A model generated the notes under the pieces. The model searched no databases and was not told the origin of the DNA. It was given only the letters and a program-made list of their open reading frames with translations. 25,287 bases of DNA from a virus. Positions 1-23,000 of the stretch are shown piece after piece. The number at the start of each line of letters is the position of its first letter. Position 1 is the stretch's first letter. The position numbers and the translations under genes were made by a program. The DNA lies in the IMG/VR virus record IMGVR_UViG_3300017969_005356, positions 1 to 25,287 of that record. One strand, given 5' to 3'.

Positions 1-3000
1 ATAAAGTCAACAATAGTATTTTTTGCAGAAAATTCATACAAATATCCGCCAATACCAATGTTGACATTGCCAGTATTATATGGAGTAATATTTCCAACTG
101 TTAATTTTGAAATTGTAGGATCCCAAGAAACAACTACCCCAGTAACACCAGAGATTGCTCCTGTAACAACTTCATTGACAGTATAATTTTGACCATTTGA
201 ATTATTGGCATCCAAATAGATATCAAGCAATGCGGTGTGTTCAACACCTTCACTGAGTCCACCTGCAGAAACAATGGTTGCAAACTTAAAGGGAATATCA
301 CCGTCTTTAATATTATCTCCAATTTGGAACAAGGTTGTATTTTGTCCACCTTGGGTCTCTTCAATACCATAAAGTGAACTATAAATTCCACCATCGAGAT
401 TAATTTGATTTGCAAAATCGGTTCCAGTATTAATCAAGTCAGCAATTCCATCACCTTGACCATCTTGTTCATCATCATCTTCAAATGCTCTATCTTGAAG
501 AGTTGATAGAGGAACAGTTAACAAAGAAATAGTAGAACCGACTTCAGTAACAACCGTATGAGGCAATATACCCGTGCCACTACTAGAAGCAACACCAGCA
601 TCAAATTGAACAATTGCATCTTCTGTAGATGGAATACCACCATCAATAAATGCCAATTCATCAACTTCAAAAGTAACCAAAAGTTCTCTAGTTGCTGGAT
701 CCCAGTCATAAACCTTTGCTACTTTATTATTCGCATTTTCAATTCTACGAATAACACGGTCACCAACATTAAATTTGTAAGTAGAAATTCCTTGAGGATC
801 GTTTTGACCTGGGTCTAAAATAACTCTTTGATCGTAGTTGAAATTTACACCTCTTGTTAATCCAGAGAATTTACCTGCACTCTTGTTAGTGTAAGTAATT
901 GTTTCTGTATTAATAATAATTTCACCAGAACCAGGATATGCATCTGTAGAATCAACATAAATCTCGGTGTCATTGGCAGTAACATTTTTGACAAGACCAG
1001 TGAGATAAATTTCCCCAGAGTTAAATGCCTGCCTTGCTCTAGTTTTTCTCTTGAGATTTACAAGTTTAGTAAAGATGATATTTGGTGGATTTGTGTAACC
1101 ATTACCAGGGTCAGTAATATCGATTCCTACAATAGAACCTTGCTCAATTCTAGCAATTGCTTTAGCACCTTGTCCTCCACCACCAGTGATTAAGATATAA
1201 GGAGGTTCTTGATAGAATTCACCAGCATCAACGATAGAAATGGATGTAAGTTTACCCAATGTGTCAATTTCCGCTGCACCTTGGGCTCCACCGCCACCAC
1301 CACCTTCAAAAATTAGAGTTGGTGGTGTGGCATAATTTCTACCAGAATTAAGCAGAGACAAACCAGTAACGGTTTGTACAATAGGACTTACAAGTGCTCC
1401 CGAACCTTCGCCACCAAGAATCTCTGCTCTAGCAGGACCAAAGTAGTTATCTCCCTTCTTGGTCATCTTGATATACGAGATGCTTCCATTGTCATTCAAG
1501 ACAACATCACCCGCAGATTCTGTTGGGAATAAAGACGTTAGTTCAGGAACAGTGTCACCTTCAAATAAAGGCGTTCCATAATACTTTGGTCCAATTCCAT
1601 ATGGGTAGGTTGGATTTCCACTACCATCTTCTGTTAAGAAGTATGCGTAAGTTCCGTTTGGATAATCTGGAGTTCTGGTAAACTTCCCATTAAATTCATC
1701 CAACGATCCCACCGCAGAATCGTAAATATAATCTTCTACTAAATCTCCAAGTAAATAACCATCTTGAACCAGTCTAAATCCTGTACTCGCTGTTAAATAT
1801 GAGAACGTGTATAAAATTCTTGGGGCGTCGGATCGCACTTCAATAGAGATTTTTCTATTGATAGCATTTTCGTACCCATTAATATACGTAACATAATCTA
1901 CAGCAACATTTTCAAGATAATATGTAACACCATCTTGATATAAAAGTTCGGTATTACCAACAACGGACGATGAATGCCACCCATCTTCTGTTTCACTAAA
2001 CAGAAGAATATTTAATGCATCGTTACTAGAATCATCTTGTACAAAGTTATATGTGTTACCTCTGTTTAAATTCAAAAACGTAGAAAGAGAACCATTAATA
2101 TAGAACTTTCCATTTGATACCGTGACTGTGTAATTAGTTGTTCCACCGTCAGAAACAATTGGACGACTTCCAGGAAGTTCGTCATTAGTTCTTAGTCTAT
2201 AAGAGGATGATTCTCTAGCAACTACTCCAGATGTATTATATCCCCAAGGACCGTAAATTGGATATCCATCAAAGGACATACCAAGAATTTTAGAGTGACC
2301 ATCTGGATGTCTTGATTGGTCACCAACGAAAGAAAATCTATTTTGATAGTATGTGTTTACATTTGGTATAGGGTCAACATTTACAGTATCAAGAATCATG
2401 TAACCTTCATCACCTTCAAATCCAGACATATGTCTGTGATACGGACAATAATAATAGATGCGATTGGTTTCATCCGCATTCATCAAGAATAGAGGTGAAA
2501 ACACATTCTCATAGTCTGCAGCAGGTGCTGCAGAAGGACCTGTGCTGTTGTAATACAGAGTTCCTGGGTTTTGATTTAGAACACCATCCCTAGTGGTGCT
2601 AAATTGCATTGGATGCCCATTAACATGAAGGGTAGATGGTTGATTACTGGCATCTGCTTGATTCCAACGAATTAAATAATTTTGCTGAACTCTAATATTT
2701 TCTGGAGCAAAATAATACTGACCAGGAACAAAAGGACCAAATTCCTCTGCTTCTGGTCCAAAATCGATATAGAAAATACCGTTCGGGAATGTAACGATAT
2801 CATCAGATACTCTAAACTGGAAACCATTAGAACCAAGAACTAAGTCATCTTCAGAAAATGGATCTCCTGTAACGTTTCGTGCATATATTCTGACTACTCT
2901 ATTTAAATTATCTCTAACGACTTTAGAAATTTCTGCTCTAGCAGTTCCACCAATTTCGTCGATAACTCTACCAACTTCCACCGAACCGAGATTTTCGTCA

Positions 3001-3833
3001 ACATCAGCAACAGGAATCATCACATTGTTATATTCGACCTTGACATTCCAAGTAAATGTTCTTATTGCACCCCAATCAAATACACCGTTAAGAAGTGAAA
3101 ATTCATCTACAACTTTACTAGTTTGATAGTAATATGTACCATTATCAATTACAGCATCGTATATATTTTTATTCTTGATATACGAATATTTTACTGCATC
3201 TAAATGATATCCCGCTGGAGCTCCAGCTGCAGTACCCCAATCTGGAGTATGCAACAAACCACCATTTGCTAAAATGCCTAAAGATTTATTTAATTGAACT
3301 ATTCTAGTTTCTGGAGTAGGAACATCTTTTCCTCCCCTATAAACAAAAACTTGGTCAAAACTTCTATCTAATACTGTGTCAGAACCTCCTGGTTCTCTCT
3401 CTGATAGAATGACTTGAGATGGTTTAGGATGATTATCCGATGTAATACGAATTCTATCGGTTACGTCATTGCCTTGAACTTGAAAACTACCAGTAGTAGA
3501 AGAATTTGGATGAGATTGCCAAATTCTATTAATATCAAAAGAATTGATAATATTTGGAGTTTCTTGTTGAGGTGTAATTTTTAACCTCAGTGGGTTATAT
3601 CCTCTTCCCCTTTCTAAAACACGAACATGAATAATTTTTCCTGAATCTTCATCAATAATTGGATACAGCAATGCCTCAGTTTCAGGAGTTCCGCAACCAG
3701 AAATGGTTAATCTAGGTGGGTCTGCAGGATCGTATCCGCTACCTCCATTGACTATTCTAACTGCGCGAACACCAAAAACCTCGTCAAAGATTGGTTCGAT
3801 TGAAGCGCCAGATCCAGGAACATTTCTTGCCAT
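1..3833 (-). CDS. Large virion structural protein with cupredoxin, YHYH and GxGY modules (3'-truncated by window edge)
   Basis: Starts at ATG 3833, three bases after the TGA of the preceding gene; the frame stays open for 1,277 codons to the window edge, so the C-terminus is missing. No strong Shine-Dalgarno is present and coupling is likely. Approximate residues: 20-95, two GxGY-type repeats (NGGSGYDPADPP and RGRGYNP); 375-480, a cupredoxin-like domain with H407 in GHPMQF and C463-x2-H466-x2-M469 in YYYCPYHRHM; 495-760, a YHYH-like domain with HPDGH (509-513) and SFDGYPIYGPWGY (520-532), interrupted at about 560-680 by a second, degenerate cupredoxin; 821-915, three GxGY-type repeats with poly-glycine turns; 940-995, a 'GSGEIIINTETITYT' module also found twice in the giant protein; 1119-1132, an Asp-rich loop (DDDEQDGQGDGIAD). 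The module set is shared with the 6,166-residue neighbour, so a similar outer baseplate or fibre role is likely. No enzymatic activity is evident. Confidence 0.83.
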   Translation of the reverse strand, partial: MARNVPGSGASIEPIFDEVFGVRAVRIVNGGSGYDPADPPRLTISGCGTPETEALLYPIIDEDSGKIIHVRVLERGRGYNPLRLKITPQQETPNIINSFDINRIWQSHPNSSTTGSFQVQGNDVTDRIRITSDNHPKPSQVILSEREPGGSDTVLDRSFDQVFVYRGGKDVPTPETRIVQLNKSLGILANGGLLHTPDWGTAAGAPAGYHLDAVKYSYIKNKNIYDAVIDNGTYYYQTSKVVDEFSLLNGVFDWGAIRTFTWNVKVEYNNVMIPVADVDENLGSVEVGRVIDEIGGTARAEISKVVRDNLNRVVRIYARNVTGDPFSEDDLVLGSNGFQFRVSDDIVTFPNGIFYIDFGPEAEEFGPFVPGQYYFAPENIRVQQNYLIRWNQADASNQPSTLHVNGHPMQFSTTRDGVLNQNPGTLYYNSTGPSAAPAADYENVFSPLFLMNADETNRIYYYCPYHRHMSGFEGDEGYMILDTVNVDPIPNVNTYYQNRFSFVGDQSRHPDGHSKILGMSFDGYPIYGPWGYNTSGVVARESSSYRLRTNDELPGSRPIVSDGGTTNYTVTVSNGKFYINGSLSTFLNLNRGNTYNFVQDDSSNDALNILLFSETEDGWHSSSVVGNTELLYQDGVTYYLENVAVDYVTYINGYENAINRKISIEVRSDAPRILYTFSYLTASTGFRLVQDGYLLGDLVEDYIYDSAVGSLDEFNGKFTRTPDYPNGTYAYFLTEDGSGNPTYPYGIGPKYYGTPLFEGDTVPELTSLFPTESAGDVVLNDNGSISYIKMTKKGDNYFGPARAEILGGEGSGALVSPIVQTVTGLSLLNSGRNYATPPTLIFEGGGGGGAQGAAEIDTLGKLTSISIVDAGEFYQEPPYILITGGGGQGAKAIARIEQGSIVGIDITDPGNGYTNPPNIIFTKLVNLKRKTRARQAFNSGEIYLTGLVKNVTANDTEIYVDSTDAYPGSGEIIINTETITYTNKSAGKFSGLTRGVNFNYDQRVILDPGQNDPQGISTYKFNVGDRVIRRIENANNKVAKVYDWDPATRELLVTFEVDELAFIDGGIPSTEDAIVQFDAGVASSSGTGILPHTVVTEVGSTISLLTVPLSTLQDRAFEDDDEQDGQGDGIADLINTGTDFANQINLDGGIYSSLYGIEETQGGQNTTLFQIGDNIKDGDIPFKFATIVSAGGLSEGVEHTALLDIYLDANNSNGQNYTVNEVVTGAISGVTGVVVSWDPTISKLTVGNITPYNTGNVNIGIGGYLYEFSAKNTIVDF
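1085..1375 (-). repeat. GxGY-type repeats in the left-edge virion gene
   Basis: Residues about 821-915 of the 1-3833 gene carry three units: GRNYATPPTLIF followed by a run of six glycines, GEFYQEPPYILITGGGGQGA, and GNGYTNPPNIIF. They match block B of the giant protein in pattern and in the glycine-rich turns. Confidence 0.7.
1575..2350 (-). other. YHYH-like domain split by a degenerate cupredoxin
   Basis: The YHYH hallmark SFDGYPIYGPWGY (residues 520-532) with HPDGH before it and SSYRLR after it corresponds to the giant protein's copy. The closing part (TRTPDYPNGTYAYF...YPYGIGPKY) comes only after an inserted segment at about residues 560-680. The insert starts NYTVTVSNGKFYING, a common cupredoxin opening. 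Where a ligand histidine would stand it has N608, and its last strand reads ILYTFSY with no Cys, His or Met, so it cannot form a type 1 copper site. Confidence 0.62.
2394..2711 (-). other. Cupredoxin-like domain with complete ligands (left-edge virion gene)
   Basis: Residues about 375-480 of the 1-3833 gene. H407 in NGHPMQFST and C463, H466, M469 in YYYCPYHRHMSG repeat the His-Cys-His-Met set and the same short loop seen in the 406-residue neighbour, with a longer insertion between the first His and the Cys. It leads directly into the YHYH domain. Confidence 0.66.
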
Positions 3834-3836
3834 TTA

Positions 3837-5057
3837 TCAACTTACGACGTTAATTGTGCCTTGCATTGCTGCGTGAATTGTACACTGATAGTACAGTACC
3901 GATGGTGCATCCATAGGAACAGTCCAATATAAAACAGAGGTTCCACTTCCAGTTTGACCTGTAGTATATGGAGTGCCAGTCAATCCTTGAGTGCTTTGAA
4001 TTCTAAATGGATGTGCTCCACCAGAAATAGAATTGTCAAAAGCATACGACATCCCTCTTTGAACATAGAGAGTTGGGTCATTTGTAGCAGCAGAAAATCC
4101 AGGACCGTTGAAGGTAAAATCCGTTGATCCGTTTGCTCCTAATTCCCACCAAGTAATTGGACTACGAGTAACAATCCAACTAGTTCCATTCCAATATAAC
4201 GAATCGCCTTGAGTAATACCAGAAACATTAGTATCCGTTAAGGCAGCAAATGTAGTAGTTAAAGTTCCATCAAAATCAATTGTTAATGTATCCCCAACTA
4301 TGCTGGTAGCAATATTTGTGCCTCCAGTAACAGTCAAAGTATCACTAGTGCTGTTTGCGGTTGTAGTTCCAGTATCAGCAACAAATGATGCAAACAAATT
4401 TTGTGCAGATGCGCCAGCGGCATCATCACCAGGAATCCAATTAGTTCCATCCCACTTCAGAATTTGATTTGTTGTTGGTGCATTAGTAGTCAAATCAACA
4501 TTATCTAAGTCACCAAGACCACTGTACTGGGTTAATAAAGAAACTCTAGTATCACCAATACCACCAGCAGTGATATTCATGTTTACATATGGATTATCAT
4601 CGCCGTCTACAGTGAAGAAATATCCAGGATATGTAGCAGCCGCAGGGGCGGCGCCAACAGAACCATATTCGTTCTTGTACGAAATTTTAGTTGGAAAATC
4701 AATGTCTCCAGTAGCACCATCAAATGTTGAAGTTACACTGCCAGCAGAAAGAGTGATATCTCCAGTTCCATTTGGAGCAACTGCAATATTTCCATTAGAA
4801 CTGGAAATAATAGAATTGCCATTAACATCTAAAGCAGATGTCAATAAACTATAATCTGAAGGTGCAAATGAACTACCATTATAACGAAGAACATGACCTA
4901 CAGCGGGATTGGTAACACTAACTTGTAGTGTAGAACCATTCCCGATTGCACTATAGAGTTCATTAAAATTATCATTAATCTTGTCGCCGCCAGTACGAAG
5001 AGTATCACCTGTATTATCATTTGCGGCAGCGCCAAGACCTAGTGTTTGTTTAGCCAT
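3837..5057 (-). CDS. Virion/tail-fibre-like structural protein with C-terminal cupredoxin domain, 406 aa
   Basis: The start ATG at 5057 lies 36 nt after the giant gene's stop, preceded by GCGAGTA, a weak ribosome site. The N-terminus (LGLGAAANDNTGDTLRTGGD then INDNFNELYSAIG) is a module seen at the start of many cyanophage virion proteins, probably an attachment or assembly element. The middle is low-charge, Thr/Ser/Gly-rich beta sequence with three tail-fibre-type motifs: LRYNGSSF (57-64), LKWDGTNW (200-207) and LYWNGTSW (287-294). Residues about 318-406 look like a cupredoxin: a HPFRIQS strand containing H349, then YYQCTIHAAMQG near the end giving C392, H395 and M398. That is a complete His-Cys-His-Met type 1 copper set with the short C-x2-H-x2-M loop found in amicyanin. 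Copper binding is inferred; a surface-adhesion fold that merely keeps these residues is the alternative. The TGA stop is followed by TAA and then the next ATG, giving a 3 nt spacer. Confidence 0.82.
   Translation of the reverse strand: MAKQTLGLGAAANDNTGDTLRTGGDKINDNFNELYSAIGNGSTLQVSVTNPAVGHVLRYNGSSFAPSDYSLLTSALDVNGNSIISSSNGNIAVAPNGTGDITLSAGSVTSTFDGATGDIDFPTKISYKNEYGSVGAAPAAATYPGYFFTVDGDDNPYVNMNITAGGIGDTRVSLLTQYSGLGDLDNVDLTTNAPTTNQILKWDGTNWIPGDDAAGASAQNLFASFVADTGTTTANSTSDTLTVTGGTNIATSIVGDTLTIDFDGTLTTTFAALTDTNVSGITQGDSLYWNGTSWIVTRSPITWWELGANGSTDFTFNGPGFSAATNDPTLYVQRGMSYAFDNSISGGAHPFRIQSTQGLTGTPYTTGQTGSGTSVLYWTVPMDAPSVLYYQCTIHAAMQGTINVVS
3840..4106 (-). other. Cupredoxin-like domain with complete type 1 copper ligands (406-aa virion protein)
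   Basis: Residues about 318-406. H349 lies in GAHPFRIQS, and C392, H395 and M398 lie in YYQCTIHAAMQGTINV on the last strand. The order and the C-x2-H-x2-M spacing match the ligand loop of amicyanin (His53, Cys92, His95, Met98). Fold and ligands are read from the sequence; bound metal is inferred. Confidence 0.7.
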
Positions 5058-5093: not shown

Positions 5094-8000
5094 TTACGAA
5101 ACTATTTCTGGGTCTACCAATTCTTCGCCATAATCAGCAAGATTTGGAGCAGTCCAATCATCAGGAACAGATGTTTCAATCTCAATGTTTGGATTTACAT
5201 ATCCGCTACCCGCGTTAGAGATTTCAATACCAGCAACACCAACCAGTGCTTTGATATTACCATCAAAACCAGAAATAGAGTCAATTCTAACATTTGGTCT
5301 GGATGTATATCCAGAACCACCCGAAGTTACCTGAACATTATCAATGAAACCGCTTGTGAGAACTGCAGTTGCGTTAGCATCCTGACCAAAGACAGAACCA
5401 AGATAATCGAAGGTGATGAGTGAGTTAGAAGACTCAATAACCGCAACCTCACGATCCTCGGTTTCACCTTGAATTGCAATAAAGTCACCTGGTTCAATTG
5501 GAGGAATAACTTCAGCAGCATCAACGTCTGCCTCAGAACCAACGTAAGAGAACGCAACAAATGTGGAACCTACGCGGGGAATTTCAGAGAAGATGATTCT
5601 AGAACCAACAATCTCAAAGGCAACTCCAGGTTCTTGAATGACGCCATTAAGAGAAACAATAATATTATTTTCAGGTCTAATTGTGCTCGACTGTACACCA
5701 TCTGTGAGCGTGAGCGAATAGAAAACATCGTTACGCTTAAGGTTGAATGATTGACGCAGAGAGTCAAACTCAAAGGAGATATCATCAAGTTGTCTCAGTT
5801 TACCAACATAGAATCCAGTGAAGGATGCACCAAGTTCTGGTGGTTCGGTGAACTGAATTTGGTTGGAGAATGCTGTAAATGCATTTGTTGCTCCAGGAGG
5901 TTGAAGAATGCCATTGACAAATACCAGCAGGTGACCTGCAGGATCGGGCAGGTATGAAGTGCCATTATCAGTTGTGAGGTTAAATGTCGTTTGAGTTCCA
6001 TCAAATCCTCTGAAAGCACGCTTAACACGAGCCTTCAATTCATCTTTAGCGACAATTACTGCTTCATAGTTATCTGGACCAATAATGGAATCTTTGATAT
6101 CAAATGTTCCATCAATTTCAGAAATATACAGTCTGGTATTTAAACCAGCGGCGCGGATATCCTGAACTCTGGCAGCACCTGCTCCTGCTACAGTAAACTT
6201 AGTAGAAATCGAAGCATATCCAACAGGGAAACTTTCACCAATTCCATAATCACCAACTACGTCACCATTTTGGAACGTTCCTTGATATTCCTGAATGTAA
6301 ATGTAATTATTAGGAATATCGACCGCAGTAATAAGTGCATAAGTGTTGGTGTCTTGAACACCACCAGAAACTTTATAGAGGCGGTTTCCAACAGTGAAGT
6401 TTTCAAGGCTGTTAATGACAGTAACACCGAGTCTAATATATCCATTAGAAGCAATTCTATCACCGATGTTAACATCAAGACCCGCAAACTTAGAAACTTC
6501 CAGATACTGTCTCGATGTTTCTGGATATACAACACTGGTTGTCTCAAATGTTCCTTGAAGAGACTCAGTATCGACGGTAAGAGTTCCACCGACGTTACTA
6601 GTTACTGCCGCTTGAGTATTTAAGAATCCTGTTGGTGTAGCAGTTTCCGTAGAAGTATATCCCTTGAAGGGAATATCTTCAGTGAAGGTGCCAATCAGGT
6701 CAATAACATGCAAACGATTTTCAATTGCACTAATCTGAGCGGTAGTACTATTTTCCGCACCAACAATTGTATCAGTAATTGCCCAAGGACCAGCAGTTAC
6801 TTCAACATCAAGATATTTGTAGTTCTCATCTTCATAGAATCCATAAACAACACCAGTTACAGTTGGAGCACCCTGTTTAGAAACGGTTTCATTCATAGTG
6901 AATGGACCATCGGTGATATCACCATCAATACGGAATCTCTTGTAAACTTTCACTACCTGACCTTCATTAAGGGCAAGTCTTTCAACTTCACCCGATGCGT
7001 CACTTTGAAGTCCATAGAAGTATTCAGAACCAAAGATACCGCCACCGATTCCTACAGGAATTGTACGTGTGCCGTAAGTCTTAGAAGGAACCGTGATAGC
7101 GTTGTTAGATTCAATATCAACATAGTAATTACTATTATTCAACTGATTTCTGATAATATTCAGTTGATATCTAATAAAGGCATCAATGGTTTCTTTAGTA
7201 TAAGAAGACGAAATGGTGGAATCAAAATACTTGTAGGAACCAGCATTTGTTGATGGGGAAGTCAAAGAGTTATTGAGTGCTTGACTCATAAACTCCTGAA
7301 GAGAATCCATGATGTAATTCTTAATGTTATAATCAGTATCCGAGTAGAAGATTCTTCCAGAAACTGCTGTATATGGGTCAAGGAGTCCAATATTTAACTT
7401 AGTACCCCAGGCATAAAGTCCGTCATTACCATTACCAGTATATGTGAAGGCACCAGTAGAACTTCTAACCCAGAATCTTGTTCTAAGAACAGAAATACCA
7501 TATCCAAAGGTTACGCTAACATAAACTCTGTACCATCCATCACCATAAGGAATAATACCAGCAGCAGGAGAACTAATATTACCAGCAACAAATGTACTTC
7601 CCACTGTTCCTGTTGCTAAATTAGCATCAACGAATACAATTTTACCACCAACAGCAGGGTCAAGTTCAATTTGCAGTCTCATTTGACTGGATTCACCTGC
7701 CTTAACGAAGGACGAGAAGGTATATGTACGGTTCTCATCATTTGCATTAGTACCAGCATCAAAGGTAACAGTGCCAGAGTCAAAGCGTGCCGCAGTATCA
7801 TCGAAGGTTGTAAATGAATCAACCGTAAAGTCCTTATAATGCAGTTTAAATCCACCAAAACCATTAGTAGCTACTAATTTATCTGCTGTTGTTGTATTAT
7901 CTGGAGCATCGATATTATCAGTAATAACAGTAATAGCGTTACTTGTCCAACCGCTAGAAGTTAAATCTTCTGGTGATGGGAAGAGGTTAGTAGTCGAGGT

Positions 8001-11000
8001 AAGACCTTCAATAGGAGAAACAATATTTCTAGCAGTATTAAGGACTTTAATATTGCCAGGATTATTATACCAATCGTAAGAAGAACTTACACCACCAGAT
8101 GAAGCAAATGGGCTGGGAGTTGTTCCCCCAACAACATTACCCTGTGGATTGATTGTATGGTTATAAGTACTAGCATCTGTGAATGCAGCACCCTGACAAG
8201 TAAGAAGGGCAGTTCCAGAAATAACACTTAATGGTGTTGTGGGAACTTGGAATCCAGAACCAGAGTACAATGCAACGCCTCTGAGAACTCTAACATTGGA
8301 CAGATAACCATCCAACTCATTACCACCACTAAGATTAGGACGACCGAGCAGCAGTTCAATTGCACCATAGTTTGTTTGCCAGGTGCCAAAACCAATCCTA
8401 TTTCCATTGAAGTAGAATTGAGTTTGATTAAAACCAGTGCCTGTTCTAACAATTGCCACATGGTGCCATGTGTTTACAGTAACATTAGCACCAAAATTCA
8501 TGAATGTTCCAGAACCGCCCCAGAAACCGATATTTCCAGTTCCATAGAAAATATTGAAGTTATCAGAAGTAGATCCAGTAATATGTCCACCTCCTGTAGT
8601 GGTTGGTCTAAACCAGCACTCGAAAGTAATCGCACCAGTACCAAAAGCAAACGAAGAGTTGACAGAAGGAATTCTCAAGTAATCATTAGAACCATCAAAG
8701 AATACAGAACCAGTTCCACCACCAGAAATAGTTGCAGTTGCACCAGAATCTCCACCAGTCAAGGTATCACCAGCAGCCCAAGCAGTTCCAGTGAAAGCAC
8801 CAACGTATAGTTTACCGCCATCTTCATCGTATTCAAGAACATCTGCAGTTCCAGTACCACTAGAAGTTACAGTTTCACCAACAGTAAAGACATCACTAGC
8901 ACTTTCAACATCAATTGTGTATGCTGTAATAGTATCAGAAGTATCAGTAATAATTAAGTCATGAACCATGTCATCAACAATGGTTCCAACAAAATCGTCA
9001 TAAGTCCAAGAACCAGAACCAAATTGACTGTCAACAATTGACTCTAACTCATCCTTATAGTAATTTTCATTGTATTGAATTTGTTTTGCAGCATGAACGG
9101 ATTCATTTCCACCAGGAGAAATGACACCCTTTAATGCATCGACAAGAACACCAAATCTTGCATATGGGTTTGCAATCGTTACTGGACTTTCAGTATCTCT
9201 ATATGCGGTTTGAGTTGCATGTACAGCAGAATATTGACCAGCAGGAACAGTAGTTCCCCTATCATAAAGGTTATTGTTGATGGCATATTCACCAAGTTCC
9301 TTAAGTTTTTCCAGTGCAAAAATTGCTGCGGGAAGAACATTGTCGATTGTAGTCAAATTGAGTGCAGCAGTTAAATACTTCTCAATTTCAGCAACACTGC
9401 TATTATTACCGCCAGTTTGAAGGTCGGAAATAATAGCAATAATTAAATCTTCAATATTCAACTCACTAGCATAAGTAAATGCAGTGAAGTTAACATTGTT
9501 CAAAGTATATGTAAGGTAATCATTGATAAGACCGAAGATTTCATCTTTGATATAGTCTCTATTGAAATAAAGTCTATCTGCAGCGATTGCATAATCATTA
9601 TCCGTTGGAGCAATGATATCATTAAGAGTATTAATTAAGGTATCAATTGCGGTTTGAACATCAGCACAACCACCTGGGTCATTAGTGATGCCCCAATCAC
9701 CAACAATAATGTTGGTTGTATTTGTACTATCTAAATCACCATTAATTGCTTGTTTTGCGTAATATCCAAGGCGATTGTGAGCATAGACGGATTGCCATAC
9801 TTGCAAACGAATATGAAGAAGAATATCATTAGTACCAAGATAGAATTTAGCGGCACCAACGGTATTAATATTACCACCATACTGAATATCATCTGCAATC
9901 TCGTCTAAAATGAGACCCAAATCAGTTTTACAACGCAAGGTTCCATCACCAGTTCCTCCAGCATTTCTAGGCATATCCAAAGCAAGGTCTGGATATCTGT
10001 TGATAAGGTCTGCAGATGCTTTATCAATGATAACAGCACGATTCTTGCGAATCAGATTTGCAGCATCATAGAATCTATGTCTAGAATCAGTATCTACTTG
10101 ATTTGTATAGATTGTGTCACTAGTACCATTGTGATAATCAACATTAAATGGTACTTCATAGAATGCATCAACCGTTCCACCAACAAATTCAAATGCAGGT
10201 TCAACCTTGGTAATAGTGCCGAGGTGGTCACCGTCAAGAGTTGCACTAGGAGTATCTGCTTCAGAAAGAGTATCCGTCAGGATATCAATCAGGTTATTAA
10301 TTGTGGTATAAACGTCAGCACAGTTGTTAAGGTTTGCAGAACCAGTCTCATAAATGTTGGTTGCGTCAGTATTGAGAGTCTGAGTCAATCCATGATTACC
10401 CTGAACTGTCCAAGCAACGTTGTTGATGATATACTGAAGCATTTCATCAACCTTGTTATATGCCCAGATAGTTTCAGTAATCTCAGTCTCAACATGGTTG
10501 AGTGTTACAGGATTCTGAGTTCTATCAACGTAAAGTGCAGCAGCATCCCACATGTGGCTGTTGGATCCATTCTTAAGGTCTTCGATAAGTTCTTCTAAGA
10601 CATCACGAATATCATCTTCGCAATTTACGTTACCGCCAGGAATGACCAAAGAAGGATATTGCTGAGTCAGCAGATAAACGGTTTCCTTAGCAATGAAGTC
10701 TAAGTTGAGTCGAATAGACTCTGCTGCATTATAAACTCTGTGGGAGTTGCCTGTGAATCCAACAGGAGCACCAGCAAGTCTAGAAGTTGCTAAGATTGCA
10801 TCATTGTGGAATTCTTCACCATTGGTAAGAGATTCGCCACCAGACCAATCTTGGTCATATACCTGACCATCTTCACCATCTAAGTGAAGAAGAAGTTTGG
10901 TGTTGCTGTCACCTTGGAAGATACCGTTGCGTGGTGTAAACTCTGCGCTATAGCGACCAGTGTTAGAAACCCTGAACTCATCAATATGACCAGAGAAAGG

Positions 11001-14000
11001 ATTAGAACCAGCGAAGTTTGCTCCAATAAAGAGACGTTTTGTGGAACCTAAATCGGTACTGTTAGTGGTGCTTCCAACTTCGGAACCATCGACAAATAAC
11101 TTCAAATTAGTACCACTTCTAGTGATAGCAATGTGATACCAAGTATCTGCAGAAAGAGTTGTTGCGCCAGATGTAACAACGTCACTGCCACCGATATTAA
11201 AGCGTACTTGATTTGTGGCAATATAAAGTCTACCAGCATTTGCATCAGCACCACTATCTCTCGTATCAAAGATATGTCTATCACCAGCAGAGACATCATC
11301 TGGACGAATCCAGCACTCAACAGTAAATGCTCCTGTTCCAAAACCAAATTCAGTAGAAGTTGGAATGGAGAGATAATCAGTAGTAGCATCATCCAATAAT
11401 AAGGAAGAATCACCAAATTTCTTCTGAGCAGTATCTAACTGAGCACTATTGTTGAAAGTTGCTGTATGATAATCCTGACCAGAGTTAAGGATTCTACCAA
11501 CCTTACCAAGATAAATTGTGGAACGTGCTTGGTTATATCCAATAACTTCTGCCTTAGTATCTCTGGTCTTAATAATTTGACCAGGCGAGAAGAATCCTTC
11601 ACCTTGTTTAGAGGTAAATGTTACTTTTCTAATTGTTATCTCTTCAGAAGCAGTAAATTCTCCGTTGTTATTTCCATATTCAATTTTATAGTTTCGGATG
11701 AATTCATCTTCACTGAAAGCACCAGATTCGTTATCATATGGAATGATATAATTGTTGATAGATTCATTTGCAGGGAATGAAATATCAAAGGCAGTAGAAT
11801 TATCATCAAAGTCAACAATATTAACTTGAGACTGTGAAATATCATCAAGAACAACGTTTGGATATGTTGTGGAAGTAATTCTGTTGAACAGCAGTCCAAA
11901 GAACGAAGAACCTTCAGAAATATCAACCTGAGAAATAAATTCTTCAGTTACGGGGTCTTGATAAACTGTAGTGGAGGTGACACGAGCAACAACAGCGGAC
12001 TGAGAACCAATGATAATATCGTTAAGTTCAATATCAAAAAGACCAGGGGTAGACTGATAGGTTCCTGTTGTCTTACTTAAAGTAAGGTCTCCTGTAACCT
12101 CAACTTGAGTTCCGTAGATAGGAGTTCCTTCTAACTTAGATGCAGCAGCAGTTCCCGATTGTCCTCTTAGAACTTCAAGAGTTGTAGACTCATTATTTTG
12201 AGTAATAGAATTAACAACAAAGATTTCAGAACCAAACTGATAACTCTCACCAACTTCAAATACATCACTTGCAACAGGAGTATTTGGTGTGTCCGAAGCA
12301 ATTACTTCAAAGGTATCTGTTGCAGCACCAATAGTATATCTTAACTCTGCAATAGGAGTTTCCTGTCCTGTTTGTAAGTTGATTTGTTCAACAACAGCAG
12401 TATTTCCAGTAAGGTTTGTTATTTGCTCACCAAAGATAAACAGTCCAAGATTATCAACGTCAGTGATTGTATTCAAGTTAGATGCAAATCCAGTCGTACT
12501 TACAATACAAAGTTCTCCAAGTTGGAAAGTACCCTCAGAAACATATCCAAAAATACTATTACCAATAACATTGGTAACAATAAGTTTTGCATTAGACGCT
12601 GTACCACTTAAAGTATTACCAATGTTAGGGAAGATTCCACTAATATTGGTGAAAGTCATTTCAATCGTATCGATTTGCTCAACTGTTACGTTGACGTACT
12701 TAACGCTTGCAGGGGGAGATGGTGGTTCACTAAAGACAATGGAATCATTTTGAATTTCAAAAGCAGTATCTGGGGTTTGTACAACGCCATTCAACACAAT
12801 CATTAACTGGTTTGCGTTAGCAACAACAGTTTCACCATTAACAGTTAATGGGAATGCGATTCTTTCACCATCAAAGAAGCTAGAAATATCATCCAATCTC
12901 TGAACAACAGAGGTTAAAATATTCTCCGAGGACGTAAGTCTCTTTTGACGGAAGAGAACTTCAGTATTATTAAACTCAGAATAAATTGGTTCAACAAGAG
13001 CAAAGTTTTGAATATTAGGAACAATTGCCTCTCTAGCAAGTTCAACCGATTTGACTAATTCGAAATCGGTTTCCTTATTTGGAATAGACCCATACTCGTT
13101 AACACTAAGTTCACCAAAAACCTTAAAGGATGCTGGGTGAACATTTCTAATTAAAATGTCTTTCCACTCACCAATAGATACAGCAGACTTAATTGCATAA
13201 GAGAAGTCTTGATAGTAGTAAGAGTCCTGAATCTTTTGAATAATTTCAGAAGGCTTACCTACATCATCAATGAACTGACCAGTTGTCTTAGTAATAGAAC
13301 CAATTTCAAGAACACCTTTAGCAACTTTAAGATCGCTAATTACACCAGAAGACTTGGAAATAGCGCCTGTTACTGATTGCCCTTCTGAAAAATCACCATC
13401 ATAATCAACAATCTTTAAAATTCTTGGTCCAACTTGCCAACCAGAGTTAGTAGAGACATATCCAGTTGCAGTAGCATTTTCAAGAGAATCACCTTGATAG
13501 ACCAATTCTCCTTCTAAGAATGTAGATGTAATGACATTTGCTTCTGCAGCACCACCGAAGGACGACGTTAATACTTGTTGACGACCCGTTCCAGCATTTA
13601 CAAAAGTAATCGCATCACCAAGTTCTGCGTTAGTAGGTGTAATTGCGAGTTTTAATTGGTCATCCTCAAGAGAGTTTGCAGTTCCAGAAATTGCATAATA
13701 AGTTGTAGTGCCATTAAGACGACCCAAAGCACCCGCAGAAAGTGGGAATTCTGCACCATCTCCAGTATCAATTACATTAAGAGTAACTTCAGACCCGTTT
13801 GGAATTCCATGAGGGAATGCAAATTGCAGTAATCCCAAATCAACGTTAATAACATAGTTGAAAGAAGACTTAAGTTCTACAGTTGGGGTAGAAGAATATC
13901 CAGCACCAGGGTCTTTAACGATGATTTGGTCGAGTCTTCCATTTTTAATGCTTGCTTCTGCAATAGCTCCAGAACCGCCGCCACCAGTAATAACAACAGC

Positions 14001-17000
14001 TGGAGCTTGTGAGTATCCAGAACCAGGGTCAGTTACAGTAATACTATCAAGAATACTTGTAGATGTAAGTTGTAAGTTTAGTGGGAACGTAATTTCAGGA
14101 CGTAAGGTATAGTCATGGGGATAATCGTAACCGAAGTTATTATTCTTCAGTTTCTTAATTTTACCTACGTTAGTACCGACAGTAAAGATTGAAGCACCAG
14201 TTCCAAATGGAGGAATAACAACTTCTAACTCAGCACCAGAACCAGTTAATCCAGGTCCAAGTATGCCATCAATTGCCTCAACATCAATACTTGCTGTAGT
14301 ATAACCTTTACCAGGAGAAGTAACAATAACCTCTTGAATCTGACCAGGAATAGTGATTCCTTCATCATCCTCACCATCTGCAACAGTGATTCTGACTAAA
14401 CCACCTTCACCATCACCTTGAATTGGCACTCCACTGTAAGTTCCAACTGCGTATTCTGTTCCAGGTTCATTAATTTGAACTCTTTCAATATTTCTAGTAC
14501 TTTGAATTCCAGAAATAATTGGAAGTTTTTGATAGAATCCACCACCATTAACAATTCTGATATCACTAATAGAACCAACTGCTTTTACAGAACTTGTACT
14601 ATAAGATGCTGTAGAGACATTAGCTGCTCCTTCGGGTTCATTTACTAGAGGGAATTTAATAACATCTGCACCTCTTGTAATTGTTGCGCCATCAATTCCA
14701 GAAACTAAGAAAGTACCCAAATATGGAGAATCGACAACATCAAGATAACTATCCTTAATTACAGGACTTGTATCATCATCTGGTCTAGATGGATCGAAAT
14801 AGTAAGAAATATTGGTAACAATATTTCTATCAACTTTTAGTTTAACTGTTGGTGTTGGTTGTCCTTCTCCAGTAACCCCAGGAGTTCCGATTCTTTCAAT
14901 AGAGTTAAAGGAATATTCAAGTTTATACAAATTATCTTTAGAGAAAGATAAATTGCCATTAGCCATAGAAGAATGACTGAGGTCAAACAAATATTGATGA
15001 CCATAGTACATTTTAAGGACTGGAGATTTGACAAAGATATCAACATTTCCAGGAGTTGTAGATGGATTTGTTATCGCAGCAGATTCTAACTTGTAAGTAA
15101 ATTCTAAAGGACTTACAACTGTTTCAACTGGGAAAGAACCATCATATTCATCATAAACGACATTATTAACAGTTTGTTCTGGATTACCATCAACAAAAAT
15201 CATTTCCCCTTCAGAGAGATAATGAGCAGTTGAGGTAATTACATATACTTCATCACTATTCTCAACAGCAGTTACTTGCAATCTCTTAGTGAGATTAGCA
15301 ATCAGTGTAATTGTCAGAACACCAGTTAAGTTAACAATTGTTGCCTCACTATAATCGGAATTAAAGGAGATATCTCCAGAGTTAATAGTAACTACAGAAC
15401 CAACAACATAAGGAGAACCGCCAGAAACTTCATCAATTCTAATAAGATAATCTTCATCGGTATATGGTTTGAATCTAGCAAACTCATTTAAGTTATTAGT
15501 TCCCCCACTTGGAGAATCATAGTTTGCCAACTCAATGAAAAATGTTCCTGGTGTTTGATTTGGAACTTGAATGAAGTTAAATCCAGAAATTTCATTAATA
15601 TCATTGGGAATTGGTCCAACAATTCCATAGGTGCTCTGCTCATTAAACTGAGTTGTTGAAAGAGAACCAAGGTCTAAGTCATTTGACCAATCATTATTGT
15701 TAACTGCTAAGTAAACTTTATTGTTAATATTGTCAATTTTAACAATGTATCCACTGTTAACAAAACTAGAACTATCATCATACAATTCAAGTTTTGTTTT
15801 TTCTGTAAGTTTGAAGTCCTGATTGATTGTGAGAACCTGAACATTATCAATCTTTGCAGTATCAGTAACTTTAAAATAATATCTGTCTTTTACAACAGCT
15901 TCTACTTTAAGTTTCTGAGAACCTGGGGAAGGAATCGTAGCTGTTCTAGAACTCCAAACATCATTACTATAAGTCAATGCCTCAGTATCCTGAGTCATCG
16001 TGGTCACAGCATCGTCAAAGTCTAAAGACTGGAATCCCGACTCTGCAAGTCCAAGACCTACAGAGTTTAGAATCAATGGCAATCCTGTAACTGGTGTAAC
16101 TGCAGTTCTGGTAAATCCAATACCAGTATTTGTCTGTTCTCCTTTATTACCAAGTCTTACAGAATCTGCATTTTTATCTGATTTTAAACCAAATCCAACA
16201 TAGTCAATATAATCATACTTATTGAGATTTGTAGTGAACCATGCATCGTCAACCCAATCAAATGCAAGGGCAAACGACGCTGTTGGAGGAATTGTAGTGA
16301 CATCAGAAGGAACAGTTGGTGTAATTGCTCTATTTCTAAGTCTCAAATTATCAAGATAATACTGTCCCTGGTATGCCGATGCAAATTCACCAGTAGTTCC
16401 ATTTTTACCAGGAATATTACCGAAGTGAAGGTCTTTATTGGAAAGGGCAGTATTTGAAACTGTTCCTGTAAAGATTTGAATGCCATTCACATAAGCAGTA
16501 AATGCATCGCCATCTTTCTTAAGACCAATAAATTGCCAAGAATCGTCCGCATACATTGTAGTTTGCGAAGAACTGAGACCAGTAGATGCACTATTGATTG
16601 TGGTGGAGTTATTGGTAACTACAAGTTCCAACTGACCACTACTAATGTCATAATACATCCAGAGACCTCCAGTAGCGTCTGTAGCGTCTCCAATTGCAAC
16701 TAAGGTCTGTTGGGTCTGAGAATGTGTTTGAGAGTTTGTAGCGTCCTTATAGAGCATGAACTCAATGGTCCAATCCTCTCCCAGTTTTGTTCCAAGGTCA
16801 TCTGCAGCAAACTTGATTGCAGCATTTTCCCAATTTGCAGGAGTTGCAACATCTTTACCGAATAGTTTTGCTACACCATCACCAACAAGAGCAAGAGCAT
16901 CGGTTGCATCATTACCAATCAGAGTTGGCGTGTAATGACCTGTAGTGTCGGTTGCATCATCAGTTTCATCAAATTCGAAGATAAATTCATTACGATTCCA

Positions 17001-20000
17001 AGATGTCTGTCCAAAAACGTGAACATCGCCTGAAGTATCGACATCAAGAGAATGTGCTGTGATACCTTCAATATTATTCAAATTGAACTCATTTTCAGTA
17101 TGATTGATAATATTACCCTTATAATCAATTTTGACTGTATCTACCGTCTTTAAAGAATTATTAATGTCTGTTCTTGTGTATGCGATATTGAGTTCACCAA
17201 AAATATCAATAGCAGATTTTGTAGAAAGTTGAATATCTCTACCTTCTGCCGAATAAGAATAATTCCAGATAATATCTCCAGATGTGTTAAATTTACCGAC
17301 CCAAAAACTATTTTTAGTTACATCATCTGACTTAAGTCTGAGAGTACATGGAACATAAAATTCATTGAACTCATCAACAACTAAACTGCTATCAAAGAAA
17401 GAATACAATGTATTGCTAAGTTCTTTAATCCAAGAAACTTGAATTACAGAAGTGCCAACGGTTACTTTACCAAAGGAAATATTAACATCATCACTAGAAC
17501 TAGTTGCCGCAGTTTCCATAGTGAAATATACATCACCATTAAGAGTAACTAAATCGGTAACTTTTTCAGAACCATTAGTAGAAGCAATTTTTCTCTTTAC
17601 AGAGAACGCGCCTGTGGTGTCTACAGTAGCAATAAATCCATCATAAGGATTTGCCGAATTTGTATTAGTGTATCCACCAATTACAAAACGAGTATCACTC
17701 AATTTTGCAATTGAAGTAATATTGTCAGAACGAGTAGCTCCAGAAATACCAGCATATGCTTTTTGGAAACTCAATGTTGCACTGAGACCATTATCTGCCT
17801 CAACATATTTTGCCAGAATAATATCTGGATTATATGCAGTTAAGATAGCACTATTTGGTCTATTGTTACCAACTACCCAGATATCAGTACCATCAACATA
17901 TAACTTTTGGAATTCTGTATATGTTTCTCCACTAGTAAGTTCGAGATTCTTTTCCCACTCTTTAACACCAGTTGCAGAAAGTTTGGCAACAAATCCTACA
18001 GTATTTCCATTAATATCTAAAGTTTTACCACAAATATAAATCTCTTTGCTATCATTAACAAATACATCATTAACTTTAACATACTCATTATTTTCAATCA
18101 GAGAGACATAATAGTCTGCCTTTTTGAAGACTTGAGGGTGAGATAAGATGACTCTTGGATTTTCAGTATATTCAGAACCAGAATTTACAATCTTAACGGA
18201 ATCAATAGCACCGACAGAAGTAACGGATGCCTCAAGTTTTCCAGATTCGCCGTCACCATCAATGGTAATTACTGGTGGAATATCTTCATTATATCCAGAA
18301 CCAGTTTGCAAAATATTAATTTGCTCGATACCCTTATATTGACGAACAACAAACTGTTTGTTCGTATTGTCCATGATTGGAGTATAATCGACAAAAATCG
18401 TATCTCCTGCAATAATATTATGAGGCTCTTCTGTAGTAAGAACACCAAAGTTTTGCCCACTACGAGTTTCAAAGGTGTAAGAAGAAATGCTTTCACCTTT
18501 AATTCTAGATACACGAGCAGAAACACCCGTTCCACCAGTACCAGTATTATTAAACAGAAGTCTGTCATTTACCTGATAATTCTGACCAGGGTTTTCAACA
18601 ATAAAGTCTGTAACAGATGCTTCTTCAAATTTAGTAGTGGTTTCAACCTCAATATCAACCTTCGAATCAAATCTTACTGTTGGGAAGTAATCAAAAAGTT
18701 GGAGAGGGGATTCTTCAAAAATTTCATCTGGGTCATCAATTTCATCTTGGCTAATGATACCATCTCTGTTTTCATCCTCAACTTCAAACAACAAGACATC
18801 ACCGTCTTCAGTTGTGAGAGAATTAGTAGAAGCATTAGGAGCCCTCTCTACATCAATATCAACATTTTCATATGGGTCTCTAAAACGAACAACACCTGTA
18901 GGAATATTTTGCTGAATTGCAGTAGAACTCAAATTCCAAGTATCAACAACAGAGTTAAAACTTGGACCAAGTACATATGGGAATACTGGGTTTCCATCTT
19001 CAGTATTATCAATGGTAACAAAGTAGCAATAACGACCATCTGGATATTCTGGAGTCTTACAAAAACGACCGTTATATTGGTCTAAGTCACCAAGATTACA
19101 TACGTATTCATAATCTTCAACAAATCTTCCTGCCTCTTCATCATTTAGAGATGGTCCAGCAATTCTGGAAGGATATGGATTAGTAATATCATTAAAAACA
19201 AGATTTGCCTTCAAACGATACGAACTTGCTAATCTAGTAATTTCCGAGGTTTGATCGGTTGGGTCTTCATATCCATATGGACCGTAGATTGGATTGCCAT
19301 CAAACGCCCATCCAATAATAGGAGAGTGTTCTAAGGAGTCGTTCAGTTCTGTTATGTTTTCATTGATTTCACTTAAATTATCACCAAGAATATATCTCAA
19401 TCTTTGAGGATTTGAAACGTGTGCATATTCACCACCATACTGGTTATTATATCCAGTGAATACAGAACCTTGAGCGGAATCAAATGAAGTTGTCTCTTGG
19501 AGATTGTATGTCCATTTGAATACTTCAGCGGAAAAAGTAGCTCCTTGACCAACAGAATCTAGGTTAATGATGGTTTGTCCTTGAGTATATCCAATACCCC
19601 TATTAATAATCTCAATACTAGTTACTCTACCAGCATTTTCTCCATCTCTATCAATATTTGCACGAGCAATGGCACCAAATCCATCACCTTGAATTGTAAC
19701 AATAGGTGGAGTGGTATATCCCTGTCCAGCAGAAATAATAGCAATAGAAATGATTCTACCATCACTAACAATGGCTTGTGCTACAGCACCGCTACCAGAA
19801 CTTAGAGATACAGATGGGGGGCTTGTATAAGACTCACCACCACTGTCAATGGAGATAGATTTAATTGGACCACGTACAGAGGCACTCGCTGTAGCACCTT
19901 GTCCTTCTCCACCAACAATAGAAATGGATGGTTGTGAGGTATATCCAGTACCACCATCTACAATAAGAATACGAGAGACAACTCCTTTTGTGATAATTGC

Positions 20001-23000
20001 TGTAGCAGAAGCACCAGAACCGCCGCCTCCAACAATAGAAACCAGGGGAGAAGATGTGTATCCACTACCACCATCTAATACAGTAATTTCACTAATAGAA
20101 CCATTGACAACTACAGATGCAGCAGCACCAGTACCGCCGCCACCTGCAATTGTGATATTTGGCGGGAATGCAGCGTCATAAGATTCGCCAGCATTCTCAA
20201 TTTCAATATTGGTGACAGAACCAAACGTTTTTGACAGTTCTGACTTATAAGACCAAACAGAAACTCCATTAATCCAAGTTCCAATTGGACCTGGGTTAAT
20301 AGCATTTTTATTTGAAATTGTTGTAGATACTAGAGGGAATCTGTTTAACTTTCTTTGGTTGCCTGGCAACAAAGCAGACCCTGGGAAAGGTCCAATTTTA
20401 TAGTTGGGAATGCCAGTGGATGCAACATAAACATAGTCATCATTAAAGAAAGAGTTTTGTACGTTGGTCGTATATGGACCAATTGCATTCAATACAGCAC
20501 TATTATCAGACTTACCTTTGTTTAAGTCAATAGAAACAAGAATATTGCCCTGAGGAGTTACAAGAGCAGGTTGTGGTAACTGATACTGGAATACGGTCTC
20601 GCTGTCCCTAGATGTGACCAAGAATGTTCCATTATAAAGAATTGGATTAGCACCATAAACTGTAACTTGGTCACCTACCAACAAACCATGAGGATTATTG
20701 CAGGTAACGGTTGCAGATTGATCGTTAATTCCACCAAAAGTAATACTTGCTACCTCAATTAACTTCTTAACATTGTATAACCAAGTATTCAATTCAGGTG
20801 CTTCAGATGTTCCACCCAACTTAGAAATATTGAGTTTATCTCCTGGAAGATAGTAAGAACCCGTATCTGTTAAAATTGTCTGTTGAGCATCAACAATACC
20901 AACAATATTCATTACAACTTCTTGAGTAGTTCCTTTATTCAGAACAACTGTAAAGTTGGAAGATACTTCAGTAGCAGAATCCCAATCTTCAACAACACCG
21001 TTTACCGAACGTGTACACTCAATAAACTGATTAAGAGACTTTTCTTTATATCGGATTAATTCTGTACCACCAATAAGAAACTCGCCGTTTCTTTCTGGCC
21101 AACCAATAGTAGAGTCAACAGTAATAATACTATCAGTGGTATTGAGAGGTTCTGCAAGTTTTGTTTTGTAAGGTACAACAAATTTACCTTCAATAGTTTC
21201 CTCAGAAAGAACTAATTCAAAAATCTCAACATTAGATGTTTTAATTGAAATATAATTTTCAACCAATGCACTTGCTGCCTTAATATTTGGGTCAGCAATA
21301 TCCTCTTCTTGTTCAATAAGAGCATCTTTAATATTTGTTGGGTCACCACTTACAAGAGTTGCTCTTAAAATAGTATCAATAGACCAAGTTGCTGCAGAGG
21401 GTTTAATAATTTGGTCTTTAGGATAAGAAATGCTTACAGTTTCTCCGTAGAGAAGTTTAAACAGGTATGCAATACTAAAAGAAGTTCCTTTTGAAGAATA
21501 AAAATCTTTAATTGTTTTAATTGATGTTCTTACATCAATCGACTTATAGTCTAAACTAGGAACATCTGGTAAGAATTGCTCGGTATACTTATCAAGCAAT
21601 CTCTTAATGAACAATGCATCCAGACACTTTACTTGTGCATCAATAGAAATATCAGATGCTAAAGTATTGTTAGAAAATACTGCATTACCATCCTCAGTGT
21701 AAGAAACAATTCCACTAGAAGCTCTTGCACATCCAGTGAAAGATGCTTTCTGATATCCAGAACCAGTTTGATTGACATCAAAACCAGTAATTTCATTTAA
21801 ACCAATTTCTACAGATGCTTTAGCAGAAGGTGGAGATTGAATGATTACCTTTGGTGGATTATCTGCACTGTATCCAGTTCCAAAAGTATCAATATTAATA
21901 TCAGTAATTCTTCCATTGAAGATAGAAGCAACAGCAGTTGCTCCACTTCCTCCAATGTATACACCACGAGCATCAACTCTATCGTCTACAATATAAACTG
22001 AAGGAACGTCCTCATATCCGCTACCACCGCTAAGCAGTTCAATTTCAATTACACGACCATCTCCATCAACACGAGTCTCAAGAACTTGAGCACCTACTGG
22101 ATCGATAATTGCCATTCTGGGAACAGTTTCATACCCCTGACCAGCATTTACAACATTAACAGCAATCAATTCTCCATCAGAAGAAATTTCTGTGGTAAAT
22201 GCTGCTTTAATGCCATTAGTGCCTGTTGGTTCATCAATATAAACTAAAGGTGGGGTAGAATAACCAAAACCAGAATTAGTAATCTCAATGGAAGCAGATA
22301 CTTGACCATTTACAATGGTTGGGGGAGCAATCTGCGCCCCTCCAGGTTGCCTAAAGGTTACTCTAGGTACAAATGTATATCCGCTACCAGAATTAACGAT
22401 TTCAAGGGTATCTACGCTACCATTAGAAACCGTTGCTTTTAATACGGAAATTTTAGATCCATCTTTTGTTGGACTCTCAATTTGAACGATTGGAGGATTA
22501 GTTTCACTATATCCTCTGCCACCAGAGAGAAGAGTTACATTTTTTATACCATCAACAAGAGAAGAAACAGAAGCACCAGAACCAGTGGGAGAACTAACTG
22601 TGACTTGAGGGGGATATTCAAAACGATATCCAGAACCAAACTCACTTGCAAAGACTTTAGTTAATTCTCCTTCATTGTTAACACGAGAATAACCAATAGC
22701 ACCACTACCAAAAGAAGGAATTGGTGCTTCAATAGAATAAATGGAGAGGAAACGTCCATTAAGAGGAGCGTTTAAGAAAATAAATTTGTCCTTATCAATA
22801 AAGAAATCGACTTTTGGCGTTAAAAGTCTATTATCGTATACAGCAATTACATATTCATCTACAATTGGTTCATATGGGGAACCATCAACAGTCATTGTAA
22901 ATTGTCTTACCCCACCACCAAAAGAATTTGACAGATTATCAATACCAATGATAGGATTTTCTAAGAAACCATTCAAATAGAAAATAAACGTTGCCGTGTT

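Follow-up and report, generated by a model that had tools for sequence, protein, structure and literature searches.

A cupredoxin-like domain with a complete type 1 copper ligand set in the gp9 baseplate connector of marine cyanophages, a probable metal site in the phage tail

The C-terminal domain of the gp9 baseplate protein encoded in the window (i.e., the whole 25,287-nt stretch of viral DNA analyzed here) is, in our assessment, likely a true, divergent cupredoxin that possesses a complete set of type 1 copper ligands, most likely binds a single metal ion with copper preferred, and serves as a structural or adhesive module. Since the four ligands are invariant among relatives of this domain, the tails of ocean virus particles probably contain metal, with copper the most likely one, as far as can be judged from sequence conservation.

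Genomic context and identity of gp9

The window covers part of a structural gene cluster from a T4-like cyanophage, with the genes on the minus strand, and is organized as follows:

23599-25287, minus strand: gp6-like baseplate wedge protein
5094-23594, minus strand: giant 6166-aa protein
3837-5057, minus strand: gp9 homologue, baseplate wedge/tail-fibre connector, 406 aa (PHROG 677; T4-GC398 in S-SSM5)
4656-5051, minus strand: T4 gp9/10-like N-terminal attachment region of gp9, aa 3-134 (Pfam T4_gp9_10_N, PF07880, E 2.9e-10)
3-3833, minus strand: further baseplate wedge protein (PHROG 708), incomplete

The annotation of Synechococcus phage S-SSM5 shows the same succession of giant protein, gp9, and wedge protein. 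The identity of the gp9 gene is well supported, as its product matches phrog_677 ("baseplate wedge tail fiber protein connector", E 4.1e-193) over residues 1-405, i.e., at full length, and carries the Pfam T4_gp9_10_N domain at its N-terminus. The initial annotation had placed the putative copper site at the tip of a "tail-fibre-like protein"; the assignment to a virion protein stands, while the fibre tip gives way to a connector between baseplate and fibre because of these two matches.

The giant protein, whose S-SSM5 counterpart is annotated T4-GC969, contains a YHYH domain (PF14240; window 19005-19514, minus strand, E 1.6e-32), Laminin_G_3/ConA-like domains (e.g., 10959-11390, minus strand), and numerous Gly-rich repeats; a Pfam Phycobilisome match within it (9981-10079, minus strand, E 9e-4) falls below the cut-off and is probably due to chance. 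T4-GC969 has been reported from the virion proteome of S-SM1 (PMC3037559).

A cupredoxin-like fold with type 1 copper ligands

The interval initially given for the domain, 3840-4106, covers aa 318-406, whereas the domain begins upstream at about aa 299 (nt 4163). Its extent and putative ligands are:

3840-4163, minus strand: C-terminal cupredoxin-like domain of gp9, aa 299-406 (AlphaFold2, Foldseek against the PDB, profile against the PDB)
4011-4013, minus strand: H349, putative Cu ligand in the loop preceding the strand of domain residues 53-56 (invariant among 67 diverse domains and 54 distinct N-terminus-retrieved tails)
3882-3884, minus strand: C392, putative Cu thiolate ligand (conservation)
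3873-3875, minus strand: H395, putative Cu ligand (conservation)
3864-3866, minus strand: M398, putative axial Cu ligand (conservation; Gln replaces Met in a second domain of some 645-aa gp9s)

Translation of the frame at 3837-5057 (minus strand) bears out the four residues H349, C392, H395, and M398 with the C-x2-H-x2-M spacing that had been noted at the outset, and two His, one Cys, and one axial Met/Gln thus stand at the sequence positions expected of a type 1 copper site. C392 is the sole Cys among the 406 residues of gp9. By chance, C-x2-H-x2-M appears in 5e-5 of shuffled versions of gp9; a chance motif was considered as its origin and is rejected on conservation.

The fold class is well supported by both structure prediction and profile comparison. 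An AlphaFold2 model of the domain built from 58 window and IMG/VR sequences reached a mean pLDDT of 96.8 and places (in domain numbering) C94 at the end of a strand, H97 and M100 in the loop that follows, and H51 in a loop that leads into another strand; as modelled, this placement of Cys, His, and Met on strands and loops is the cupredoxin arrangement. When the model was searched against the PDB with Foldseek, the first 19 matches were each a nitrite reductase, rusticyanin, amicyanin, pseudoazurin, AcoP, or laccase, all at probability 1.00, with copper nitrite reductase at 2e-5 and CueO also among the matches. The sole non-copper protein by name within the top 50 was coagulation factor Va at rank 20, which likewise has cupredoxin-like domains. 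TM-scores against solved cupredoxins were moderate (0.45-0.58 for the best small ones, with an rmsd of about 5 Å, and 0.39-0.58 across the top 50), as would be predicted for a divergent member of the family.

At the profile level, 13 divergent domain sequences reached amicyanin in the PDB at 1e-3, and a 67-sequence domain profile reached plastocyanin (1e-5), nitrite reductase (1.5e-5), and amicyanin (4e-5), with cupredoxins making up 49 of its 50 matches at E<=0.1; the ligand motif itself contributes to such profile matches. The Greek-key beta-sandwich and the profile-level similarity that mark the cupredoxin fold are hence both found in this domain, and the cupredoxin fold and amicyanin-type loop that were originally proposed for it hold up on the model confidence together with the Foldseek and profile matches. 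A single-sequence search of solved structures returned none that contains the gp9 domain. Pfam Copper-bind (PF00127) was reached by 28/67 relatives at E<=0.1 and was missed by the window domain alone at E 0.1; because of this miss, recent capture of a phage plastocyanin, the cyanophage cupredoxin with which the initial annotation had drawn its comparison, is not evident.

The residue following the first His is Pro in 65/67 domains, in place of the Asn that follows it in amicyanin and one nitrite reductase, where it provides a second-shell hydrogen bond, and that is common, not universal, at this position. The second shell therefore differs, and the Pro suggests a non-classical second shell whose spectra may differ from those of classic blue copper.

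Joint conservation of the ligands

Ligand counts were made on gp9 genes retrieved by N-terminal queries only and are therefore unbiased. All four ligands were present in 91/91 complete gp9 ORFs obtained in this way, with a loop spacing of C-x2-H-x2-M in 79, C-x2-H-x3-M in six, and C-x4-H-x2-M in six, such that 12/91 retained the ligands despite an altered loop length. Loss of single ligands, sought among these gp9 homologues as the outcome that would speak against the proposed joint conservation, was not seen. Compared with the window domain, 54 distinct gp9 tails were 32-73% identical (median 46%), and 15 of 108 positions were invariant among them, all four ligands included. Judged from these alignments, a ligand set that stays intact while the loop changes in length has the appearance of a metal site maintained by selection.

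In a broader set of 67 divergent domains from all sources, the four ligands and Tyr390 were the only invariant columns, which holds for those 67 rows because they were hand-picked from 76 cluster representatives (omitting Gln-for-Met copies, two altered-loop copies, one truncated copy, one degenerate copy, and a number of intact but redundant ones), and the N-terminus-retrieved set is the fair test. Loci from a scan with a Cys/His/Met-containing pattern, which is biased, were kept out of the loss test and included in the wider alignments. Exactly one Cys was found in 138/185 complete gp9 proteins. Degenerate copies of the domain that lack ligands occurred in other proteins, alongside an intact copy within the same protein, and had lost the Cys and both His together.

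Some 645-aa cyanophage gp9s (L327-L333) possess two cupredoxin-like domains, one with C-x2-H-x2-Q (stellacyanin-like) and the other with Met.

A candidate second domain pair in the neighbouring wedge protein

The PHROG 708 wedge protein encoded next to gp9 has, within 1554-2801 (minus strand), a YHYH motif and two regions of related appearance:

2358-2780, minus strand: candidate cupredoxin-like domain 1, aa about 352-492, with H407, C463, H466, and M469 intact (homologue counts; AlphaFold2)
1758-2150, minus strand: cupredoxin-like domain 2, aa about 562-692, ligand-less in the window clade (homologue counts)

C-x2-H-x2-M was kept in 62/63 distinct PHROG 708 homologues that have domain 1. Domain 2, in which the strand pattern is present and which adjoins the YHYH motif, was without C-x2-H-x2-M in 57/57 covered homologues having a motif-bearing domain 1, and the S-SSM4/ACG-2014d/S-RIM14 clades lack domain 1 and have the motif in domain 2 instead, in 14/14 covered homologues. 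Going by these counts, the wedge protein retains one motif-bearing copy, domain 1 or domain 2, in a reciprocal manner; one homologue (L037) has neither domain with a complete ligand set. As the pattern splits by clade, it may reflect one or two events rather than many.

The cupredoxin assignment of domain 1 is weaker than that of the gp9 domain and is kept at candidate level, since the weak matches of a masked profile on the PHROG 708 protein fell in domain 2 and none in domain 1, since the model is good only locally (pLDDT about 80-89 across most of domain 1 and 66.6 for the model, too weak outside the two domains for detail), and since a joint PHROG 708 sequence profile matched no cupredoxin in the PDB. 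Foldseek returned mostly laccases and other cupredoxins for this model, with poor whole-chain TM.

Distribution of the domain

A tblastn search with the gp9 domain at E<=1e-4 matched 327 records of phages, whose names run under Synechococcus, Prochlorococcus, Cyanophage, or Marine. Relatives were found in a long tail fibre protein of S-SCSM1, in one podovirus tail fibre, in many IMG/VR contigs, and within a subtilisin-like virion protein of ACG-2014i, and BFVD holds close models from S-SCSM1, S-H34, S-RIM14, and P-SSM2. Fusions of the domain to subtilisin-like (S8) or related cyanophage proteins were observed at L094:2495-2830, L093:2387-2686, and L091:4609-4926. Three further BFVD matches (A0A481Z6J5, A0A481YWX9, and A0A481YVH3), which are Pithovirus/Marseillevirus "beta-sandwich proteins", showed structural likeness to the gp9 domain at TM 0.63-0.71. 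A scan of genome contigs for a cellular relative of one phage domain copy found none.

A metal site in the virion and its alternatives

The window protein resembles T4 gp9/gp10 chains in sequence only up to about residue 62, and the C-terminal domain is without a sequence-detectable counterpart in T4 gp9 structures, so its position in the virion is one that we infer. A search of solved structures turned up no cyanophage homologue of gp9. In the arrangement that we favor, gp9 would be anchored to the baseplate via its T4-like N-terminus with the cupredoxin domain facing outward, and one metal ion per domain, preferably copper, would be held at the exposed gp9 C-terminus in the assembled or released virion, drawn either from the envelope of the host or, once the cell has lysed, from seawater. 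The metal would cross-link the C-terminal ligand loop with the first-His loop, protect the sole thiol against oxidation, and give a fixed shape to a surface that interacts with the long tail fibre or with the surface of the host. We likewise infer metal binding itself, the identity, occupancy, and loading time of the metal, and the structural or adhesive role of the domain. A further-reaching and rather doubtful version, which we offer tentatively, would have two kinds of cupredoxin-type copper site in adjacent baseplate proteins, virion copper needed for adsorption or baseplate triggering, and phages forming a distinct particulate copper pool whose infection is copper-dependent.

The possibility that zinc is the native metal must be taken seriously, and a purely structural pin of zinc or another cytoplasm-loaded metal in the same gp9 site, with copper not native, is in our view unlikely. 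Free copper in the cytoplasm, where virions assemble, is thought negligible, which counts against copper loading. In favor of such a pin, virion assembly is cytoplasmic, cupredoxin Cys-His2-Met sites accept Zn, T4 gp12 short fibres carry Zn, and the ligand-less neighbouring copy indicates that fold and ligands are separable. However, a full set with Met (or Gln, cf. stellacyanin) is more like copper than structural Zn sites, and the C-x2-H-x2-M, C-x2-H-x3-M, and C-x4-H-x2-M loop series is likewise more copper-like. A role as redox or copper sensor, in which oxidation, reduction, or uptake of Cu at the host envelope would alter the connector and help to trigger fibre deployment or baseplate switching, appears quite improbable to us. 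A complete type 1 ligand set is normally retained for electron transfer, T4 gp9 is located between fibres and baseplate, and such domains lie in two adjacent baseplate genes, but neither a redox partner nor a path for electrons is evident, which makes electron transfer less likely, and the domain also occurs elsewhere, for instance in tail fibres of podoviruses and in subtilisin-like virion proteins, as would be expected of a module in general use.

Very improbable, finally, is an inherited beta-sandwich that acts only as a rigid, metal-free adhesin, with the ligands being a relic or a matter of side-chain packing. Ligand-less degenerate copies, including PHROG 708 domain 2, do exist, as this explanation would have it; yet where the fold persists without function the whole ligand motif is lost, whereas every N-terminus-retrieved gp9 has kept its four ligands through loop-length change and rapid change elsewhere, and most gp9 proteins are without Cys beyond the ligand. 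The initial suggestion of a fold retained for rigidity is disfavored for the gp9 copy, because the adjacent gene encodes a copy in which the fold is kept and the ligand motif is gone.

Relation to known systems and implications

The gp9 domain shares with cupredoxins (amicyanin, plastocyanin, and rusticyanin; PF00127 and PF13473) a beta-sandwich, a His in a loop just ahead of a strand, and an F-x-N preceding this first His, and with amicyanin the C-x2-H-x2-M loop before the last strand; it differs in its fusion to a phage baseplate protein, in the Pro rather than Asn after the first His, and in its moderate TM-scores. The window gp9 and T4 gp9 have the T4_gp9_10_N domain and the annotated connector role in common, and the window protein adds the C-terminal cupredoxin-like domain. 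Among phage-borne metal proteins, the cyanophage plastocyanin petE is an auxiliary metabolic gene, small and separate, whose product is thought to be active in host photosynthesis (PMC3037559); it is also a cyanophage-encoded cupredoxin, whereas the gp9 domain belongs to a protein of the virion and shows no evident close kinship with it. In iron-binding HxH tail fibres (e.g., T4 gp37 and Alteromonas phage R22Y), for which the Ferrojan horse hypothesis was put forward, the presence of iron was proposed and has in part been demonstrated (PMC11705849). These fibres resemble the gp9 domain as a proposal of tail-borne metal in marine phages, while they hold octahedral iron in trimers and the gp9 domain has a predicted His2-Cys-Met site within a single domain, where copper is expected.

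Cupredoxins, phage petE, and iron in tail fibres are already known. A search of the open-access literature returned no paper joining a cupredoxin with a tail fibre, a phage virion, or cyanophage virions, and hence no earlier open-access report of a cupredoxin in a virion protein was found.

Should metal occupy these sites, viruses of great abundance in the sea would bear a redox-active metal in the baseplate, and the iron-based "Ferrojan horse" idea would extend to copper. Cyanophage infectivity would then be tied to a metal that is both scarce and toxic for picocyanobacteria, and annotators would gain a function for a widespread unnamed domain in marine phage tail proteins.
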